Below are positions 11,947 to 50,639 of a stretch of DNA of 50,639 nucleotides, one piece after another. Origin of the DNA: an uncultured beta proteobacterium. GTDB taxonomy: Bacteria; Pseudomonadota; Gammaproteobacteria; Burkholderiales; Burkholderiaceae_C. The DNA lies in contig CAITZZ010000046.1 of NCBI GenBank assembly GCA_903897005.1, positions 1 to 50,639 on the forward strand, in the 5' to 3' direction. The notes under the pieces are model-generated. The model made no database searches, had not been told where the DNA came from, and saw only the letters and a list, made by a program, of their open reading frames with translations. Every line of letters begins with the position of its first letter. The stretch's first letter is position 1. Made by a program: the position numbers and the translations under genes.

Positions 11947-14482
<2,536 letters not shown>

Positions 14483-42068: not shown

Positions 42069-43682
42069 CTATTTTGGCTCCGTGATTTCCTTCAGTTTGA
42101 AACGCTGCAATTTGCCGGTCTCGGTGCGCGGCAGCTGATCCACGAAGCTGATGACCCGTGGATACTTGTAGGGCGCCGCATTGTTCTTGACAAAGTCCTG
42201 CAGTTCCTTGACCAGTTGGGCATCGCCCTTCCAACCCGCCTTCAAGACCACAAATGCTTTCAGCACCTGGCCCCGATCAGGATCGGGAACGCCGATGACC
42301 CCACATTCGGCGACCGCCGGGTGCTCCAGCAGCACCGACTCAACCTCCGGGCCGGCAACGTTGTATCCCGAGGTAACGATGATGTCATCCACCCGCGCGT
42401 GAAAGTAGTAGTAGCCATCCGAATCGGTGTGATAGGTGTCCCCGGTGATGTTCCAGCCGTTTTTCACATAGTCCGCTTGACGCTTGTCGGCCAGATAGCG
42501 GCAGCCCGTTGGCCCCTTGAGAGCCAGCCAGCCTTCCTTACCGGTGGGCACGGGGTTCATGTCCTTGTCGACCAACATCGCCCGGTAGCCAGGCAGTGGC
42601 TTGCCAAGCGCGCCGACACGGTAATTGTCGGGGTCGGACGCAATGTAGATGTGGATGACCTCGGTACCACCGACACCATCATGGATCTGGATGCCAGTGG
42701 CAGCGCGCCACTGCTCACGCGTCGGCACCGGAAGCGCTTCGCCAGCGGAAACGCATTTCTTGAGTGAACTCAGGTCGTGCTGTTTGACCAGCCCGGTCAT
42801 TTGCCGGTAGCCAGTTGGCGAAGTGATGCAGATGGTGGCATGGTACTTCTCCATGGCGGCGATCAGCGCGTCAGGCGGCAACCTGGGCAGCAGCACGGTG
42901 CTGGCCCGAGCATGCATCGGGAAACACAAGAGCCCACCCAGACCGAAGGTGAAAGCGAGCGGCGGGGTGCCAATGAAGACGTCATCGCGGTGCGGCCTCA
43001 GGCAATGACGCGGGAACACCTCGCACATGGCGAGGATGTCACGATGAGCATGAATGCAGCCCTTGGGTACCCCCGTGGTGCCCGAGGTGAAAGCAACCAG
43101 GGCCGGGTCGTCGGCTGCACTATCGATCGCTGCAAACTCGTCTGACTTGCCAGCCAGACGCTGTCTGAACTCATCGGTATCGTAGAGCTGCACATGTTTC
43201 AACTCGGGACAGTCCGACCGGGCCAGTTCCAGCTCCACAGCCAGTGACGCTTCGCAAAACGCGTGGCTGACGTTGGCCAGATGCACGATCTGCTTGAGTT
43301 CCTTGGCGCGCAGCAAGGGCATCGTGCCGACAGCGACGCCGCCCGCCTTCCAGATCGCCAGCCAGCCCGCTGCGAGCCAGGGAGAATTCATGCCGCGAAG
43401 CAGCACGCGGTTGCCCGGCTGTACGCCGAGATCTTCTGTCAACAGGCGCGCCAGTCGATTGACCTGCTGCTGTAACTCGCGATAGCTCCAGCGGAGCTCG
43501 CCGCTGATGATCACAATGCGCTCGCCGTCTCCATCCGCCACGGCGCGATCCAGCAGTTCTGCCGTCGCATTCATTCGCTGCGGGAACTGCAGCTCCGGCG
43601 TCTCAAAAATGAACTCTGGCCACTGGTTGCGCGGTGGCATGCTATCGAGAATGAAGCGATCAACGTGGGCACTTGTGGTCAT
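42069..43682 (-). CDS. Aryl-CoA ligase, 2-aminobenzoate/benzoate type
   Basis: A 537-residue acyl-adenylate-forming enzyme: A3 motif FTSGTTGVPKG (about 198-208), HDGVGGTEVIH in place of the usual YGxTE, GDTYHTDSDGYY, and the C-terminal lysine in PRTETGK (Lys524). The overall sequence resembles the benzoate/2-aminobenzoate-CoA ligase group, which forms the CoA thioester from the acid, ATP and CoA. The substrate assignment as 2-aminobenzoate comes mainly from the divergent monooxygenase/reductase gene at 47.5 kb. AGAGGGA precedes the ATG at 43682. Confidence 0.85.
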   Translation of the reverse strand: MTTSAHVDRFILDSMPPRNQWPEFIFETPELQFPQRMNATAELLDRAVADGDGERIVIISGELRWSYRELQQQVNRLARLLTEDLGVQPGNRVLLRGMNSPWLAAGWLAIWKAGGVAVGTMPLLRAKELKQIVHLANVSHAFCEASLAVELELARSDCPELKHVQLYDTDEFRQRLAGKSDEFAAIDSAADDPALVAFTSGTTGVPKGCIHAHRDILAMCEVFPRHCLRPHRDDVFIGTPPLAFTFGLGGLLCFPMHARASTVLLPRLPPDALIAAMEKYHATICITSPTGYRQMTGLVKQHDLSSLKKCVSAGEALPVPTREQWRAATGIQIHDGVGGTEVIHIYIASDPDNYRVGALGKPLPGYRAMLVDKDMNPVPTGKEGWLALKGPTGCRYLADKRQADYVKNGWNITGDTYHTDSDGYYYFHARVDDIIVTSGYNVAGPEVESVLLEHPAVAECGVIGVPDPDRGQVLKAFVVLKAGWKGDAQLVKELQDFVKNNAAPYKYPRVISFVDQLPRTETGKLQRFKLKEITEPK

Positions 43683-43983
43683 GGTGTTCCCTCTGAGTTG
43701 GCTTGAAGATTACGCAGCTGCATCGAGTAAAAGGCAAGGCGGAGATGGTGGCCAAGGCCATCAAGCGCTTGCCTGTTCATCAAACTTTTTGGCTTCCGAC
43801 ATTAAAGGGGCTGCCGGTCCGCACGCCAATAGTGCAAACCCCTATACGTCATTCATAATATATACCTAAATAGTTTACACCATGGTATACTTTTTTGACA
43901 TCTTCCTGGCTGATTGCCAGCGGCGCACCCGGCGCGGCTTGATTTCGACGATCCGCCCAGTATGAACAACCGAGGAGCAAGAA
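43683..43983. promoter_or_regulatory. Divergent control region between aryl-CoA ligase and the reductase operon
   Basis: This 301-bp stretch holds no gene. Its middle (about 43840-43900) is clearly AT-rich against a GC-rich background. Towards the + operon there is an extended -10 promoter TGGTATACT (43883-43891), giving a leader of about 85 nt with GAGGAG before the ATG at 43984. Towards the ligase, TATTAT (minus strand, 43855-43860) is a possible -10. A 10-bp palindrome CAAGCGCTTG lies at 43762-43771. Confidence 0.6.
43876..43889. promoter_or_regulatory. Candidate MarR-type operator overlapping both divergent promoters
   Basis: TACACCATGGTATA is palindromic in 6 of 7 base-pair positions and centred on CCATGG. 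It overlaps the extended -10 promoter of the + operon and covers the expected -35 position of the ligase promoter. A further TATACC (43861-43866) is inverted relative to GGTATA (43884-43889). The MarR gene in the same operon is the natural candidate regulator. Confidence 0.45.
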
Positions 43984-44412
43984 ATGAAAGTCAACAAGAT
44001 CGATCACATCTGCATCGCTGTGCGCAACCTCGACGAAGCACGGAGAATCTGGGAGCCGATGCTGGGCAAGAGCGCGCCCGACGACGCCTACGTCGATGAA
44101 CCTGAAAAGATCCGGGTCGCACGCTATTGGCTTGGCGGCGTCGGCTTTGAACTGATGGAGTCGACAACACCGGATGGCGATGTCGCCAAGTTTATTGAAA
44201 AGCGCGGCGAGGGCGTGATGTTGATCAGCTTCAATGTCAACAGCACAGCGAAGGCGGTCGAAGAGATTCAGGCGTTGGGCTATCCGATGATAGGCGGACT
44301 GCGTTCGTTCAGGGACTGCGAATTTGCCTTCGTGCACCCGAAGAAGATGAACGGTGTACTGCTCGAGGTGATCGACTACAAGTGGCGTGAGCTCGACGCC
44401 GCCAACGATTAG
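43984..44412 (+). CDS. VOC-superfamily protein, methylmalonyl-CoA-epimerase-like
   Basis: A 142-residue glyoxalase/VOC fold protein: KIDHICIAVRNLDEA at the start, GFELMEST (Glu56), KRGEGVMLISFNV, and HPKKMNGVLLEVID at the end (Glu128). It is similar to methylmalonyl-CoA epimerases, which bind an acyl-CoA and a metal. His8, Glu56 and Glu128 fit metal-ligand positions, but the usual His of the KRGEGLHH-type strand is replaced by Met/Leu (79-80), so ordinary epimerase chemistry is doubtful. As first gene of the operon before the ferredoxin and tungsten-enzyme genes, it probably acts on an aryl- or alicyclic-CoA. Confidence 0.85.
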   Translation: MKVNKIDHICIAVRNLDEARRIWEPMLGKSAPDDAYVDEPEKIRVARYWLGGVGFELMESTTPDGDVAKFIEKRGEGVMLISFNVNSTAKAVEEIQALGYPMIGGLRSFRDCEFAFVHPKKMNGVLLEVIDYKWRELDAAND

Positions 44413-44420
44413 GTGCAGCC

Positions 44421-44960
44421 ATGGCCCAAGCGAAAAAGATCAGGAAACGCATCACCATCCATGCCAATAAGTGCATCGGCTGCAGGGCCTGCGAGCTCGC
44501 TTGTGCGGCGTTCCACGCCAAGCCGCGCTACAGCAGCATCAACCCGGCACGCTCGCGCATTCAGATCATCAAGGACCCGCTGAAAGATATCTACCTGCCG
44601 GTCTATGCGGGCGAATACACGGCGACCGAATGTACCAGCAGGAACAAGTACATCCTGGACGGTAAGGAATACAGCAATTGCGACTTTTGCCGTGCATCCT
44701 GCCCGTCACGCGACTTGTTCAAGGAACCCGACTCTGGCCTCGCGCTGAAGTGCGATATGTGCGAAGACACACCGCCCCTGAAGCTGCCCAAGTGCGTCGA
44801 GTGGTGCCCCAAAGGAGCGCTGATCTATGAAGAGGTCGAGGAGCATGTCCAGGAGCAGGCGTCGCCATTGGGCGCAATCGAGATCGGCGTCGAATCGATG
44901 ATCGAAAAATACGGGCTCCAGAAGGTGCTGGAAACAGTCGCCAAACTCGCCAGACCCTAG
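44421..44960 (+). CDS. Three-cluster [4Fe-4S] ferredoxin-like subunit, BamC/AorA-like
   Basis: A 179-residue electron-transfer protein with exactly 12 cysteines: 18, 21, 24, 28 (CIGCRACELAC), 71, 87, 90, 94 (CDFCRASC), 111, 114 (CDMC) and 125, 129 (CVEWC). That suffices for three [4Fe-4S] clusters, the number reported for BamC of class II benzoyl-CoA reductase. A C-terminal helical tail of about 45 residues follows. It lies 52 bp before the AOR-superfamily gene and should be its small subunit, passing electrons to or from the tungsten site. AorA of aldehyde oxidoreductase is the alternative. Confidence 0.85.
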   Translation: MAQAKKIRKRITIHANKCIGCRACELACAAFHAKPRYSSINPARSRIQIIKDPLKDIYLPVYAGEYTATECTSRNKYILDGKEYSNCDFCRASCPSRDLFKEPDSGLALKCDMCEDTPPLKLPKCVEWCPKGALIYEEVEEHVQEQASPLGAIEIGVESMIEKYGLQKVLETVAKLARP

Positions 44961-45012
44961 TTCTGGACAAAGCCATCAAACCGGCAAGATAGAAGTATGC
45001 ACAGGAGCACCC

Positions 45013-46944
45013 ATGAAGTACGCTGAAGCCGGAATCAACCTTGAAATTGACCTCGGCACCGGGAACATCGAACGCAAAGCCACTGACGAAAAGTTGACGG
45101 AGCTCCATCTCGGCGGACAGGGTACGGCCGCCAGGATACTCTGGGACCGGGTGCCGCCCGAAGTGGACGCCTTTTCGCCCGACAACCTGCTGATCTTTAG
45201 CACCGGCTTGCTTGTTGGGACACCGGTCATTGGCGCCAATCGCACCATGGTGAACACGATTTCACCTCAAACGGACCGTTATTCCCATTCGATATTTGGT
45301 GGTTTTTTCGGGCCCGAACTCAAATACGCCGGCTACGACAAGATCATTTTGCGGGGCAAGGCGCCAAGTCTGGTCTACCTGTACATCCACAACGACAAGG
45401 TAGAGATCCGCGACGCCGCCCACCTCCAGGGCAAAGGCGCTTCGGAAACAGCGGAGATCATTCAAGCTGAGTTGAAGGACACGCGAATTCAGGTGGCGGC
45501 CATCGGACTGGCGGGTGAAAACAGGGTGTTCATGGCCTCCATCGAGCATGCTAATTCCAGCGCGTCACGCGGCGTTGGCATGATCATGGGCGACAAGCGG
45601 CTCAAGGCCATTGCGGTTCGCGGTACCAAGGATACCTACGTAGCCAAGCCGGCCGAACTGTTTCAAATCTGCAACCGCATGGTGCAGGAAATTCACGACA
45701 ACCCGGACGCTGGCGACACCATGGCGCACGGCGAGGGTGATGAATTTCACGTTAACAATTTTGCCTGGGGCAATGCACGTGGACGGCGCAAGGATTTCTG
45801 GAGCAAGGAACGCGAAGAAGCCTGGCTCTCCCTGGAAAACAAGCTGCGGGTGCGCTGGAATGGCTGTTACAACTGCCCGAAAGATTGCCATCAGGCGATC
45901 AATTATCCGGGCCGGCGCCCCTATTTTCAGAAGTGCTACAGCAAGCTGACCTATGCCATGGCGGCGATGGAGGATCTGGAATTCGACTACGACATCATCG
46001 GACTTACGCAGGAGTACGGCCTGGATGCCTATTCCACGCCGCAAGTGATGGCCTTTGCCATCGAGCTCTATGAAGCAGGCATCTTGACCAGCCAGGATCT
46101 GCCGGATTTTCCCGCCACTGGCGCGGCACGCTTCTTTTACCTTTTGGAAAAAATCGTTCGCCGCGAAGGGATTGGTGACGCGCTCGCCAATGGCGTCTAC
46201 CTGGCCGCGCGCCAGATCGGCAAGGGGGCGGAAGCCTTCGACCACAACACGATGAAGAAGTTTGAGCAGGTGCCGATCAAGCTCTCGATGATCAACTACC
46301 CCTACTTTCTGATGTACGCCACCGGCGAGAAGATGGCCATCAACCAGATAGAAGGCTCCTTTCCGCAGACCCCTATTGCAGACAGGGCCGAGCGTGAGGC
46401 CTATGTCAAGGGCTGGGTTGCCGCGCCCGAGCGATTCAAGAAGTGGCTGATGGAATGGGAACCGCGCACCCACCCCAGCATCGAAGCGTCGGTTCATATC
46501 TGCGACTGGAATGAAACCATGCACTATGTGGATGACGCCATCGGCACCTGTGCCTTCCTGTCGTCTTTTCGTGGCCAGTTTGGTGGTCGACCGCCCTATC
46601 ACATTCACAACCTGCCCGAACTCATATCGCTGGCCACCGGCAAGCCGCTCGACTCGGACGGACTGTGGAAAATTGCCGCCCGTAACCGCAATCTGATCCG
46701 GGCGATCAATATCCGGCGCGGTCTGCGGCGTGTGGACGAAGCGCCCCCGGCTAACCAATGGAAGCACCGCGATCCGCTGGCTGAGAAGCAACTGCTCGAC
46801 GCCTATTACGAATTCAAGGGCTGGAACGACGACGGGATTCCCACTGCCGAAACGCTGGACAGCTTCGACCTGCCCTACGTCAAGGACGATTTCATTAGCC
46901 GCGGAATCCTGGAAAAAGAGCACATGACTCATGACACGACGTGA
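45013..46944 (+). CDS. Tungsten-dependent oxidoreductase of the AOR superfamily, BamB-like (class II aryl-CoA reductase) candidate
   Basis: A 643-residue AOR-family protein. [4Fe-4S] ligands are CYNCPKDC (Cys285, 288, 292) and Cys513 in DAIGTC; pterin-binding regions include GGFFGPELKYAGYDK. Several blocks agree with what I recall of BamB rather than aldehyde oxidoreductases: VYLYIHNDKVEIRDA, NFAWGNARGRRKDFW, the C-terminal RRVDEAPPANQWKHRDP, and FKGWNDDGIPT followed by YVKDDFISRGIL. Residues Glu244, His246 and Cys308 are candidates for the zinc site of BamB. BamB reduces benzoyl-CoA to a cyclic dienoyl-CoA without ATP. The subfamily call is from memory of the family, not a search. AGGAG precedes the ATG. 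Confidence 0.85.
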   Translation: MKYAEAGINLEIDLGTGNIERKATDEKLTELHLGGQGTAARILWDRVPPEVDAFSPDNLLIFSTGLLVGTPVIGANRTMVNTISPQTDRYSHSIFGGFFGPELKYAGYDKIILRGKAPSLVYLYIHNDKVEIRDAAHLQGKGASETAEIIQAELKDTRIQVAAIGLAGENRVFMASIEHANSSASRGVGMIMGDKRLKAIAVRGTKDTYVAKPAELFQICNRMVQEIHDNPDAGDTMAHGEGDEFHVNNFAWGNARGRRKDFWSKEREEAWLSLENKLRVRWNGCYNCPKDCHQAINYPGRRPYFQKCYSKLTYAMAAMEDLEFDYDIIGLTQEYGLDAYSTPQVMAFAIELYEAGILTSQDLPDFPATGAARFFYLLEKIVRREGIGDALANGVYLAARQIGKGAEAFDHNTMKKFEQVPIKLSMINYPYFLMYATGEKMAINQIEGSFPQTPIADRAEREAYVKGWVAAPERFKKWLMEWEPRTHPSIEASVHICDWNETMHYVDDAIGTCAFLSSFRGQFGGRPPYHIHNLPELISLATGKPLDSDGLWKIAARNRNLIRAINIRRGLRRVDEAPPANQWKHRDPLAEKQLLDAYYEFKGWNDDGIPTAETLDSFDLPYVKDDFISRGILEKEHMTHDTT

Positions 46945-47449
46945 TCGAGTAGACAACAAGCAGCCAGTATCTGGCGCAGCGTTGCCTGTCGCTGTCAACG
47001 AAGATGGCCACACGCCCCTGCGGATGTGGGTGCGTCTGGTGGCGTGTTACCACTTGATGGAAATCCGCTTACGCACTGAGTTGCGCAACGGTTTTGACAC
47101 AACCTTGCCACGCTTTGACCTTATGTCCCAGCTCTACCGCTACCCGGAAGGTCTGAAGATGGGGGAACTGTCGAGACTTTTGATGGTGACCTGCGGCAAC
47201 ATCACTGCGCTGACCGATCGTCTGATTGAGGAGGACCTGGTTCAACGGCGCGACGACCCGAATGATCGTCGTGCTTACGCCATCAGTTTGACTCCCAAGG
47301 GCAAGAAACTGTTCCAGAAAATGGCGGTCCAGCACGAACGATGGGTTAGCTCGCTGCTCGGTGATTTTGATCCATCGGAACTTCAGCAACTTAGCAGCCT
47401 GCTGGGTCAGTTGAAACAGGATATCACCAGCCGGTCAAAAACAAGCTGA
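46931..47449 (+). CDS. MarR-family transcriptional regulator
   Basis: A 172-residue winged-helix protein with a helical N-terminus (RMWVRLVACYHLMEIRLR), recognition region MGELSRLLMVTCGNITALTDRL and the wing DDPNDRRAYAISLTPKG. MarR proteins of aromatic pathways (for example BadR, GenR) usually repress and are released by a CoA thioester. Its start lies 14 bp inside the preceding gene, so it is produced with the operon it probably controls, through the palindrome at 43876-43889. Confidence 0.92.
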   Translation: MTRRDRVDNKQPVSGAALPVAVNEDGHTPLRMWVRLVACYHLMEIRLRTELRNGFDTTLPRFDLMSQLYRYPEGLKMGELSRLLMVTCGNITALTDRLIEEDLVQRRDDPNDRRAYAISLTPKGKKLFQKMAVQHERWVSSLLGDFDPSELQQLSSLLGQLKQDITSRSKTS

Positions 47450-47465
47450 ATATTGAAGGGAAATC

Positions 47466-49772
47466 ATGCGTATTGCAGTTCTTGGCGGCGGTCCCGCAGG
47501 TCTTTACTTCTCCCTGCTGATGAAGCAGGCCAACCCGACATGTGACATCACCACGTTCGACAGAAATGCGGCCGACAACACCTTCGGCTGGGGCATTGTC
47601 TTTTCCGACAAGACCATGGACGGCTTCCGCGAGGCCGATGAGAAGGTGGTCAATGAAATCGAAGCCAACTTCCGCCATTGGGATGATGTTGACGTCTTCT
47701 TCAAGGGCCGCAAGATCACTTCCAGCGGTCACGGCTTCTGCGGTATCGCACGGCTCAAGCTCCAGGAAATTTTCCAGAAGCGCTGCGCCGAGCTGGGCGT
47801 GAAGATGGTCTGGGAGACTGAAGTCACCGATCCCGACGAGTACGCCCGCAACTACGACCTGGTGGTCGCCGCCGACGGCGTGTCCTCGACTGTACGCAGC
47901 AAGTACGAGGCACACTTCAACCCCCGTATCGACGTGCGCACGAATCGCTTTATCTGGCTGGGCACCAAGAAGAAGATAGACACTGCTTTCACCTTCGCCT
48001 TCAAGGAAACAGAGTGGGGTTGGTTCAACCTGCATGCCTACCGCTTCAACGACGAGATGTCGACCTTCATCATCGAGACGCCGGAGCCTACCTGGTACCG
48101 CGCTGGTCTGGACAAGAAAGAACCGGCCGAAGCGATTGCCTTCTGCGAAAACCTCTTTGCCGACCTGCTCGATGGCAACAGCCTGATTTCCAACGCGCGC
48201 CACCTGCGCGGCTCCGCCGTCTGGATGAAGTTCAACCGCGTACTGTGCGAGCGCTGGTTCAAGGACAACATCGTACTCATCGGCGACGCCGCCCATACCG
48301 CCCACTTCTCGATCGGCTCCGGCACCAAGCTGGCGATGGAAGATGGCATCGCGCTGACCAAGGTACTCAACAGCAACGAAGGTACCGTGCCCGAGCGTCT
48401 GGCGCGCTACCAGGCCGAGCGCGAAACGGAAGCGCTCAAGCTGCAAAGCGCTGCGCGCAACCGCATGAGCTGGTTCGAGGACATCGAGCGCTACGTCTAC
48501 ATGGAACCGGAGCAACTGGCTTTCGCTGTGCTCACCGGCAGCCAGCGCGTCGGTCATGCGAATCAGAAACTGCGTGACGCCAGCTATGTCGAGAGCGTCG
48601 ACCGGTGGTTCCAGCAGCAGGCCGGTCTGCCCGCTGATCCGGCCAAGCCCGCGGTGCCGCCCATGTTCACGCCCTTCAAACTGCGCGACATGACGCTCAG
48701 CAATCGCGTGGTGGTCTCACCGATGTGTACCTACTCGGCGACCGACGGCCTGCCTGGCGACTTCCATTTCCAGCATTACACGGCGCGCGCTCTGGGTGGC
48801 GCAGCGCTGGTCATGACCGAGATGACCGTGATCTCGGAAGATGGCCGCATCACCCCCGGTTGCACCGGCATCTGGAACGATGCCCAACAGACTGGCTGGA
48901 AACGCATCGTCGACTTCGTGCATGCCAACAGCAGCGCCAAGATGGGTTTGCAGATTGGTCATGCCGGCCGCAAGGGATCGACCAGGCTGGCCTGGGACGG
49001 CATTGACCAGCCGCTCGACAGTGGCAACTGGCCCTTGATCGCTCCCTCACCCCTGCCCTACATCCAGGGCGTATCGCAAACGCCGCGCGAGATGAAGCTG
49101 GCCGACATGGACCGCGTGAAGGCCGACTTCATCGCCGCCACCCGGCGTGCCGACGCTGCCGGTTTTGACCTGGTCGAGTTCCACGCCGCACACGGCTACC
49201 TGATCTCGTCCTTTATTTCACCGCTGACCAATCAGCGCGATGACGAGTATGGTGGCAGCCTGGAGAACCGTTGCAAGTTCCCGCTGGAAGTATTCAAGGC
49301 CATGCGCGCGGTCTGGCCGGCCGGGAAACCGATGTCGGTGCGCATCTCGGCGCACGACTGGGCCGCTGGCGGCATCACGCCGGTTGATGCCACCCAGGTC
49401 GCCAAACTGTTCCAGGACGCAGGCGCTGACATCATCCACGTCTCCTCAGGGCAGGTGGTCAAGGAGGAACAACCGATCTATGGCCGCATGTTTCAGGTGC
49501 CGTTTTCAGAACGTATCCGCAACGAATTGCATGTGCCAACGATTGCCGTTGGCAACATTTTCGAGGCCGATCACGTCAACACGATTGTTGCCGCTGGTCG
49601 TGCTGACCTCTGTGCGCTGGCGCGTCCGCACCTGGCCGATCCGGCCTGGACCCTGCACGCGGCGGCCGAACAGGGTTACACGGGCGTCAACTGGCCAAAG
49701 CAGTACATCGGTGGCAAGGTGCAGCTTGAACGCAATCTGGAGCGCGCCGCTCAACTGGCGCTGAACGCCTGA
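47466..49772 (+). CDS. 2-Aminobenzoyl-CoA monooxygenase/reductase-type bifunctional flavoenzyme
   Basis: A 768-residue fusion. The first 385 residues are an FAD aromatic monooxygenase: GGGPAG (7-12), VVAADG (133-138) and [15 protein letters not shown] (272-286). After a Pro-rich linker (about 385-402) comes an Old Yellow Enzyme-type FMN reductase: [34 protein letters not shown] and [14 protein letters not shown]. This architecture is that of ACMR from aerobic 2-aminobenzoate degradation, which hydroxylates then hydrogenates the ring of 2-aminobenzoyl-CoA. The monooxygenase half also resembles salicylyl-CoA 5-hydroxylase, so the substrate is not certain. AAGGGA lies before the ATG. Confidence 0.92.
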
Positions 49773-50533
49773 TGGGCCTGGCGCGTCACGCACTGGTCAC
49801 GGGCGGCGGCCGCGGCATCGGAGCAGCGATTGCTGCGGCGCTGGTCGCCGCTGGGCACCGCGTGACGATCACCGGGCGCGATGCTGCGCGGCTGACGAGT
49901 GTGGCCGAGGTGCTCGGAGAAAACTGCCAGGCGCTGGGCATGGACGTCACCGAGCGCACGTCAGTGGATGCCGCGCTGGCGCTAGCGCGCCAGCGTTTCG
50001 GCGCCATCGGGATTTTGGTCAACAATGCCGGTCAGGCTGCCAGTGCGCCGTTCATGAAGACCGATGCGGCCGTCTTGCAGGACATGCTGGCGGTCAACCT
50101 TGGCGGTGTTTTCAACTGCACGCAGTCCGTCTTGCCCGACATGATGGCCGCCAACTGGGGTCGCATCGTCAATGTGGCTTCCACCGCCGGGCTGCGCGGC
50201 TACGCCTACGTCAGCGCCTACAGCGCTGCCAAGCATGGCGTGATCGGTCTGACGCGCTCGCTGGCACTGGAGTTGGCGAGCAAAGGCATCACCGTCAACG
50301 CTGTTTGTCCCGGTTACACCGAAACGGATATTGTGAAAGAAGCCATTGCCAATATCATGGCCAAGACCGCACGCTCGGAAACCCAGGCGCGTGCCGAGCT
50401 CGCCAAATCCAATCCGCAGGGGCGCTTGGTGCAGGCCGAAGAAGTCGCCGACGGCGTGCTTTGGCTGGCAAGCGAAGGCGCAATCAGCATCACCGGCCAG
50501 GCCATTGCTGTTGCCGGTGGCGAAGTGATGTAG
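49772..50533 (+). CDS. Short-chain dehydrogenase/reductase, probable 3-hydroxyacyl-CoA dehydrogenase
   Basis: A 253-residue classical SDR: TGGGRGIG (10-17), NNAG (84-87), Ser137, and YSAAK (Tyr150, Lys154). Its ATG overlaps the monooxygenase/reductase stop by one base (TGATG), implying tight coupling. In this pathway it would oxidise a hydroxyl on the reduced ring or ring-opened CoA ester, using NAD(P). Acetoacetyl-CoA or ACP reductase-type activity is the generic alternative. Confidence 0.9.
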   Translation: MGLARHALVTGGGRGIGAAIAAALVAAGHRVTITGRDAARLTSVAEVLGENCQALGMDVTERTSVDAALALARQRFGAIGILVNNAGQAASAPFMKTDAAVLQDMLAVNLGGVFNCTQSVLPDMMAANWGRIVNVASTAGLRGYAYVSAYSAAKHGVIGLTRSLALELASKGITVNAVCPGYTETDIVKEAIANIMAKTARSETQARAELAKSNPQGRLVQAEEVADGVLWLASEGAISITGQAIAVAGGEVM

Positions 50534-50556: not shown

Positions 50557-50639
50557 GTGTCAGAACTTTCCATGCAAGACAACAAGCGACCCTTCAGGGA
50601 CTACCCGGCGCGCCACTTCAAGTGGTCGTGTGACGGCGA
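50557..50639 (+). CDS. Enoyl-CoA hydratase-family protein, N-terminal fragment
   Basis: GTG at 50557 follows AAAGGAG six bases upstream and opens a frame running off the window edge. The visible 27 residues begin MSELSMQDNKRPFRDYPARH and continue with FKWSCDG, an N-terminus seen in crotonase-fold proteins of the aromatic-CoA type, where the next residues form the first beta strand. It lies 23 bp after the SDR gene, in line with ring-cleavage and beta-oxidation steps. Only the start is visible, so the family call is tentative. Confidence 0.6.
   Translation, partial: MSELSMQDNKRPFRDYPARHFKWSCDG

Follow-up and report, generated by a model that had tools for sequence, protein, structure and literature searches.

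The tungsten-containing BamBC core of class II benzoyl-CoA reductase has been described from Geobacter metallireducens (PDB 4z3w-4z40), and the accessible part of a 2025 review places class II enzymes in strict anaerobes (PMC12096430). Azoarcus evansii is reported to use a ligase followed by a 2-aminobenzoyl-CoA reductase for the anaerobic conversion of anthranilate to benzoyl-CoA, the reductase gene being left unnamed in the portion of the review available (PMC4539516). The anaerobic indoleacetate (iaa) route of Aromatoleum also feeds 2-aminobenzoyl-CoA, and the excerpt available names no reductase for it (PMC9613470). An aerobic cluster of the 2-aminobenzoyl-CoA type on plasmid pSmeAK21a of Sinorhizobium meliloti encodes a ligase, MarR, a fused FAD monooxygenase/old-yellow-enzyme reductase (ACMR), SDR, enoyl-CoA hydratase, acyl-CoA dehydrogenases, thioesterase, RidA, 3-hydroxyacyl-CoA dehydrogenase and thiolase. 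Here we describe a locus in which a BamC-BamB-like pair, preceded by a VOC-fold gene, stands ahead of genes of this aerobic type. It lies in the last 9 kb of the window, by which we mean the entire contig C46 (CAITZZ010000046.1, 50,639 nucleotides) of the uncultured betaproteobacterial assembly GCA_903897005.1 (3.7 Mb, 439 contigs, 91.6% complete, 2.7% contamination). Judging from gene context, we favour with some confidence the reading that VOC-BamC-BamB is a tungsten-dependent 2-aminobenzoyl-CoA reductase, which probably deaminates its substrate to benzoyl-CoA.

Identity and relatives of the BamBC-like pair

The large subunit (643 residues; 45013..46944, plus strand), the predicted catalytic subunit of the reductase, matched G. 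metallireducens BamB (4z3w_A) over its full length with 811 bits and 57–60% identity in a phmmer search against the PDB, whereas aldehyde oxidoreductases scored 124–224 bits. AFOR_N (225 bits) and AFOR_C (186 bits), both above cut-off, place it in the AOR/WOR superfamily. Its predicted structure (mean pLDDT 87.8) fits the whole chain of 4z3w_A with a TM-score of 0.96 and an rmsd of 1.5 Å, compared to TM-scores of 0.76–0.82 for aldehyde oxidoreductases. The AorAB tungsten aldehyde oxidoreductase of Aromatoleum aromaticum (8c0z) shares the superfamily and a ferredoxin partner, but scored 170 bits with a TM-score of 0.79. An AorB-like aldehyde oxidoreductase was ruled out by these values, and the tree, whose outgroup consists of two AOR rows rather than AorB, agrees with sequence and fold in grouping the protein with BamB. 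The upstream ferredoxin (179 residues; 44421..44960, plus strand) matched BamC (4z3w_E) with 223 bits, other PDB proteins reaching at most 34 bits. Its 12 cysteines (positions 18, 21, 24, 28, 71, 87, 90, 94, 111, 114, 125 and 129) are predicted to hold three [4Fe-4S] clusters. An earlier reading, made from the sequence without database searches (the sequence-only reading), had likened the two proteins to BamC and BamB, with a grouping inside aldehyde ferredoxin oxidoreductases as what would refute it; the likeness is confirmed, and sequence, fold and tree show no such grouping. The ratio dN/dS was 0.03–0.15 for VOC, BamC and BamB (compared with L035, L010 and L053; L-numbers denote loci of relatives, G-numbers genomes, with G000 the window's assembly, and C-numbers contigs).

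All 36 aligned sequences share Cys285, Cys288, Cys292, Cys513, Cys308 and His246 without exception. Cys308 aligns with Cys322, the tungsten ligand of BamB, which YdhV shares according to the accessible part of the review (PMC12096430), and the metal of the window protein would be tungsten. With BamB as its closest match and this cysteine retained, the protein belongs to BamB in the wide sense. The same source calls Glu251, His255, Glu257 and His260 of the Zn/proton-relay invariant in BamB (PMC12096430). A 9-column gap removes Glu251 and His255 from the window protein, Glu257 is replaced by Asp243 and only His260 is kept, as His246; part of the motif is lost, and therefore the pocket differs from the canonical one. 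The motif is not strict, since a second BamB of the same assembly (on contig C57, described below) itself carries Val at position 255. Of the three pocket residues named by the sequence-only reading, His246 and Cys308 thus have their counterparts in BamB, while Glu244 aligns with Lys258.

The relatives came from one scan of an 84,980-species collection, from which the best 80 of 529 (59–98% identity) were used. In a 100-row tree, the window BamB fell in a 19-row set (98% support) of 13 betaproteobacterial and 6 deltaproteobacterial rows, hereafter the subclade, and the BamB proteins of G. metallireducens and C57 in a separate 13-row set (100%). The window protein is therefore not a BamB in the narrow sense, either by grouping or by relay residues. 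For the alignment behind the relay-segment comparison below, nine of the 100 tree rows were removed (L057_q, L082_q and L087_q for broken or over-long frames, and six distant or duplicate AOR proteins) and three minus-strand BamB proteins added. A mixture-model tree of 53 rows (51 BamB rows and two AOR outgroups with very long branches; quick search, SH-aLRT only) again placed the window BamB in a 13-row set, at 99%. Within this set, betaproteobacterial rows are nested among deltaproteobacterial ones, which suggests a transfer into betaproteobacteria. The subclade carries the segment HG[ED]GD[EAQ]FH (KGEGDEFH in L053), which alters the Zn/proton-relay region ahead of the relay histidine. All 19 subclade rows have Gly240 and Gly242, whereas no more than 10% of the remaining rows with a residue at these positions do (74 rows compared, L075_m excluded).

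No Azoarcus or Aromatoleum record was present among the best 80 of the 529 relatives, so in A. evansii the reaction proposed here may be carried out by a different enzyme. Among 300 genomes of the window's order, no match at E 1e-120 was found outside the window's own genome. In a plasmid collection 84 records matched, the best at 30% identity among the matches listed, with no BamB of the window kind there.

The operon and its companion genes

The end of the window is organized in two divergent transcription units. On the plus strand, the order is VOC-bamC-bamB-marR-ACMR-SDR, followed by the start of an enoyl-CoA hydratase gene. The successive spacings from VOC to SDR are 8, 52, -14, 16 and -1 bases, and because of these the six genes very probably form a single operon. 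It faces a minus-strand aryl-CoA ligase gene (42069..43682; NCBIfam benz_CoA_lig 353.6 bits, cut-off 375, and Pfam AMP-binding), a predicted 2-aminobenzoate-CoA ligase, across a 301-bp presumed promoter region (43683..43983). A sigma-70 scan of 43600-47500 gave no site above chance. The ligase also stands beside the operon in L035 (91%) and L055 (89%), and L012 has a 55% homologue. The marR gene (46931..47449, plus strand; Pfam MarR 46.7 bits) overlaps the end of bamB by 14 bases. It is followed by ACMR (47466..49772, plus strand), SDR (49772..50533, plus strand; Pfam adh_short 203 bits), presumed to be part of an aerobic 2-aminobenzoyl-CoA route, and the hydratase start (50557..50639, plus strand), which is cut by the contig end and matches the enoyl-CoA hydratase of L010 at 92% over 50557-50634; this gene is complete in L009, L010, L035 and L055.

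Downstream of bamB the window has the same genes in the same order as the S. meliloti cluster, which lacks the VOC-BamC-BamB set that precedes marR in the window. L009, L035 and L055 match the S. meliloti order up to RidA, and so does L010, minus SDR. ACMR is 57% identical to the S. meliloti enzyme and scored above the cut-off for NF006101 (1252 bits against 1078); as a fused FAD monooxygenase and old-yellow-enzyme reductase, it is a predicted 2-aminobenzoyl-CoA monooxygenase/reductase. By gene content, then, this appears to be an aerobic anthranilate-type operon headed by a dearomatase pair. The NF006101 model is named salicylyl-CoA 5-hydroxylase/oxidoreductase, and this name would favour 2-hydroxybenzoyl-CoA (salicylyl-CoA), or some other 2-substituted benzoyl-CoA, as the substrate of the pair. 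We regard such a substrate as improbable, as the isatin hydrolase partners described below and RidA suit an amino group.

Binning contamination is an unlikely source of the bam genes. The pair is on a 50.6-kb contig among ordinary housekeeping genes, with 2-oxoglutarate dehydrogenase and others upstream, the same operon occurs in L008, L009, L035 and L055 as far as their contigs extend, and the second BamB of the assembly has near-identical counterparts in four related MAGs (metagenome-assembled genomes; see below). The G+C content is 55–58% at 43.5–48 kb and 58–65% on both flanks, a weak signal. The bacterium is an oxygen user, and its assembly encodes four COX1-family proteins; this family includes nitric oxide reductases too.

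We compared the 19 subclade loci with 62 other BamB loci (81 in all, many ending at contig edges). A VOC gene was found in 12 of the 19 and in 1 of the 62 (Fisher 8e-9), ACMR in 8 and none (Fisher 2e-6), and a MarR homologue in 10 and none, respectively; these Fisher tests overstate the association, because related loci were treated as independent. The VOC gene (43984..44412, plus strand; 142 residues) opens the span 43984..46944 selected by the sequence-only reading as the third gene there, and was unnamed in its text. Its model resembles methylmalonyl-CoA epimerases (TM-score 0.86), and His8, Glu56 and Glu128, putative metal ligands, are invariant in 13 of 13 VOC proteins. It does not qualify as a methylmalonyl-CoA epimerase: TIGR03081 gave 72 bits against a cut-off of 115, and all 13 have Met/Phe-Leu where 3oa4 and 6xbr carry two adjacent histidines, the latter being a weak criterion, because 6bu2, named an epimerase, has GlnGln there.

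The position of the electron-input genes bamDEFGHI (D-I) varies within the subclade. Consistent with the sequence-only reading, none adjoins the pair in the window. In L008, L009, L035, L053 and L055, as in the window, bamC and bamB are adjacent without D-I, and both genes are present without D-I in L025, L026, L028 and L040. In L010 and L014, bamDEFGHI lies between bamC and bamB, and the visible parts of L011 and L015 agree; L064 has bamC-I on the opposite strand.

From these data we infer a scheme in which the substrate, direction, product, electron donor, metal and VOC role are all suggested by context. The ligase would form 2-aminobenzoyl-CoA (anthraniloyl-CoA). In the presence of O2, ACMR and the downstream beta-oxidation-like genes would consume it; in its absence, BamBC would reduce it, with electrons supplied by ferredoxin or by a Bam D-I complex whose genes lie elsewhere. 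The clusters of BamC and then the [4Fe-4S] cluster of BamB would relay these electrons to the W-cofactor with its ligand Cys308, and this cofactor would attack the CoA-ester ring in a proton-coupled electron transfer involving His246. The VOC protein, at a guess, would handle the reduced intermediate (alpha-proton removal or tautomerisation); ammonia would be lost, and the benzoyl-CoA formed would enter the ordinary bam pathway. A rough value for the reductive deamination of aniline, from formation energies, is about -64 kJ/mol (E0' about -0.08 V), which speaks to plausibility only; the overall deamination would be thermodynamically easy and would therefore fit the lack of D-I beside the pair.

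Minor observations on these companions were as follows. In L014, an ACMR homologue (58%; 12008-14134) lies beside the Azonexus BamB and may be broken or misassembled, because there is a stop in the matched frame. Outside the subclade, a VOC homologue (55%) occurs together with BamB, BamC and a ligase in the Bacillota locus L054 (756-5541). L062, its neighbour in the tree, comes from a genome (G329) with an isatin hydrolase on a different contig, and the two are possibly a second lineage with the same function. A hydantoinase/oxoprolinase-type pair is found on two BamB contigs, at 2-4133 of L012 (caprolactamase-like, below cut-off) and upstream of the ligase in L055 (36% and 27% alike), and perhaps opens a lactam of the oxindole type.

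The isatin hydrolase setting

Of 16 subclade genomes examined, six encode an isatin hydrolase (L013, L025, L026, L028, L040 and L053; five deltaproteobacterial MAGs and one Rhodoferax MAG), versus 1 (L062) of 24 examined among the genomes of the 62 other BamB loci (Fisher p 0.011, overstated for the same reason as above). In all six, the gene is on the BamB contig, about 0.1 to 21 kb from BamB; the contigs were matched by their length and, for L013 and L028, by identical genes as well. None was found in the ACMR-type betaproteobacteria examined. L040 has the order 2-oxoacid oxidoreductase beta, VOC, XDH-type trio, cyclase-family hydrolase, BamB, BamC, and L053 the order cyclase-family hydrolase, indolepyruvate-oxidoreductase-like pair, VOC, BamC, BamB, MarR. 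Compared with PDB sequences, both hydrolases come out as isatin hydrolases, at 326 and 472 bits; an identity as kynurenine formamidase, which gave 25 bits or no match, was rejected.

Genes for 2-oxoacid oxidoreductases are present on the BamB contig in all five isatin-hydrolase loci viewed (L013, L026, L028, L040 and L053). PorB proteins of L013, L028 and L040 are 83–84% alike, and Por genes are also on the L026 contig. A molybdopterin oxidoreductase is encoded on the L013, L028 and L026 contigs, along with PorA and a GltD-like protein of the Por type; L028 and L132 also show genes for Fe-S, NrfD and PorC proteins. As the NCBIfam equivalog scores of these oxidoreductases fall below cut-off, only generic subfamily models passing, their substrates can only be inferred. 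Isatinate is 2-aminophenylglyoxylate, and its CoA-dependent oxidative decarboxylation would yield 2-aminobenzoyl-CoA. The ACMR setting and the isatin-hydrolase setting would then converge on the same compound. The sequence-only reading had offered action on an amino-aryl-CoA among several possibilities, and this guess is the one that the two neighbourhoods favour.

For anaerobic indole degradation, oxindole, isatin and anthranilate are given as intermediates and the mechanism is called a black box in the accessible part of a 2018 review (PMC6221969). Candidate anaerobic indole/isatin clusters were observed in deltaproteobacterial MAGs (L133, L134, L132, L028, L013, L026 and L040); they hold isatin hydrolase, a PadB-like Mo enzyme (none seen in L040), Por-type genes, VOC, BamB and mostly BamC, with XDH-type genes seen in L040 and L133.

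We tentatively propose a more specific version, which is less secure than the assignment of the substrate. VOC-BamBC would be a dedicated W-dependent reductive deaminase, the deltaproteobacterial contigs (L028/L133, L013/L134, L026/L132 and L040) would encode an indole route, and betaproteobacteria would have joined its last step to an aerobic operon. An XDH-type hydroxylase would convert indole to oxindole, and the PadB-like Mo enzyme with NrfD would take oxindole to isatin. Isatin hydrolase and then the 2-oxoacid oxidoreductase would give isatinate and from it 2-aminobenzoyl-CoA plus reduced ferredoxin, the same ferredoxin that BamBC would use to form benzoyl-CoA and ammonia. Freshwater betaproteobacteria would have acquired the BamBC step and linked it to an aerobic anthranilate operon, so that 2-aminobenzoyl-CoA could be handled with or without O2. 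Such clusters are candidate genes for anaerobic indole breakdown, and the pair itself for the conversion of 2-aminobenzoyl-CoA to benzoyl-CoA, the activity described from A. evansii without a gene.

We found no report of such gene sets in the accessible parts of PMC9765128, PMC5400083, PMC12096430, PMC1924859, PMC2755013, PMC4539516, PMC6221969, PMC9613470, PMC5852087 and PMC10470551; subscription papers were mostly outside the search, and this is not proof of absence.

Other reductases and the weighing of alternatives

The window's assembly encodes two AOR proteins besides the window BamB. One is on C57, a 6-kb contig with the order oah/bamA, dienoyl-CoA hydratase (dch), bamB, bamC, bamD, followed by the contig end; oah/bamA (TIGR03200, 616 bits) and dch (TIGR03189, 384 bits) are both above cut-off. 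The C57 BamB is of the same family as the window BamB (57% identity), but groups with G. metallireducens BamB and with BamB of the Burkholderiales loci L076/L077. It is 95–100% identical to BamB of four related MAGs (L112, Comamonadaceae; L113, Rhodoferax; L114; L115) which, unlike the window, have the full dch-bamBCDEFGHI set; their bamA is complete in L113 and L115, while in L112 and L114 the contig ends within it. Since the C57 BamB sits with oah and dienoyl-CoA hydratase, the benzoyl-CoA job is taken by another copy, and the window pair is unlikely to be the benzoyl-CoA reductase of this genome; C57 shares the assembly, which is not proof of the same genome.

These operons contradict the rule that class II genes belong to strict anaerobes, which the sequence-only reading had also followed. 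The genome of L010 encodes a full class I reductase as well, bcrCBAD, which scores above cut-off for each of the four NCBIfam class I models. There, one 66-kb contig (G305:C76; L138, L010 and L114) carries bcrCBAD, dch-bamBCDEFGHI with a cut bamA and, beginning about 0.5 kb after the latter, a second bam set, VOC-bamCDEFGHIB with marR-ACMR. Tungsten class II operons are thus present in Comamonadaceae-type betaproteobacteria, in one genome together with class I. For Rhodoferax ferrireducens, a 2009 report noted bam-like genes that were only moderately similar and not clustered, and none of class I (PMC2755013). The HGD-D pair of the Rhodoferax MAG is below the class I cut-offs, and no HGD-D protein was found in the window's assembly. 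The genome search for bamD-I that had been suggested was successful only in part: BamD is present on C57, BamE was not found and BamF gave only a 28-bit match, so that the assembly does not show a complete class II complex. BamE is encoded elsewhere in the genome in 8 of 11 examined genomes of the compact type (no D-I beside the pair), the exceptions being those of the window, L035 and L055.

Several observations weigh against a 2-aminobenzoyl-CoA reductase. Five of the 19 subclade loci (L011, L015, L022, L059 and L064) lack ACMR in the locus and have no isatin hydrolase known; of these five, the genomes of L011 and L022 were searched for the latter, with a negative result. In L012 and L013, where D-I is likewise lacking beside BamB, no BamC match adjoins it. 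BamE is absent at E 1e-60 from the window's assembly and from the genomes of L035 and L055, and HGD-D genes are present in 8 of 11 related betaproteobacterial genomes, in that of L010 as a full class I reductase, which could also reduce 2-aminobenzoyl-CoA. The oxidoreductases of L040, L013 and L028 might use phenylglyoxylate. The isatin-hydrolase family also holds dihydrophloroglucinol cyclohydrolase, only 25% identical according to the accessible text of PMC10470551. The module of L010 and L014 keeps its own D-I set (partly visible in L011 and L015). This last point weighs against a downhill deamination, because a dearomatising complex would need D-I and a deamination would not.

The retained D-I set is therefore also a point for an alternative that we consider rather unlikely, though the strongest of those weighed here, in which BamBC would dearomatise 2-aminobenzoyl-CoA to an aminocyclohexadiene-carboxyl-CoA (enamine). 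VOC/RidA-type enzymes would then free ammonia as the imine hydrolyses, shared enzymes would open the beta-keto ring thioester, and no benzoyl-CoA would be formed. BamB chemistry normally gives a 1,5-diene, according to the accessible part of PMC12096430, and RidA genes occur in the loci of L009, L010, L012, L035 and L055 and near the isatin hydrolase in L132. However, the aerobic route explains RidA equally well, and no BamA- or DCH-like match lies beside the module in L013, L025, L026, L028, L040 and L053 (L022 not counted).

The conserved fold and cofactor ligands would suit an ordinary second benzoyl-CoA reductase, maybe for another substrate level or redox state, with the vicinity of ACMR an accident of acquisition. 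BamB paralogues are common, several loci hold two BamB genes, and a benzoate-induced second bamB2C2 of G. metallireducens is mentioned in the accessible part of PMC1924859. We consider this explanation unlikely, as the subclade is tied to VOC and to two distinct 2-aminobenzoyl-CoA settings, the relay motif is altered and the assembly already holds bamBCD.

The sequence-only reading had also suggested that the pair may run in the oxidising direction, for which we found no support. BamBC would then restore the aromatic ring of a dihydro-intermediate from the aerobic route and pass the electrons to ferredoxin; that D-I genes are missing next to the pair, both in the window and in several relatives, would agree. 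This is very improbable: the deltaproteobacterial BamB and VOC occur without ACMR, on contigs whose oxidoreductases would make low-potential electrons, and tungsten enzymes of this kind are called oxygen-sensitive in the accessible part of PMC12096430. Returning to 2-aminobenzoyl-CoA reduction, if BamBC does act on an ortho-amino ring without a bifurcating D-I complex of its own, it would test how much of that machinery the ring chemistry needs.

Two further observations concern other AOR-superfamily genes. In the Burkholderiales MAGs L076 and L077, and in part in L075, two BamB genes point away from each other; in the L076/L077 pairs, one is of the C57 type with BamC-H and the other is from a third clade with its own BamC. 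The third AOR-superfamily protein of the window's assembly (L007 4503-6392; G000:C168) belongs to a distant branch and lies near XDH-type, amidohydrolase-like and TetR-like genes (named by eye).

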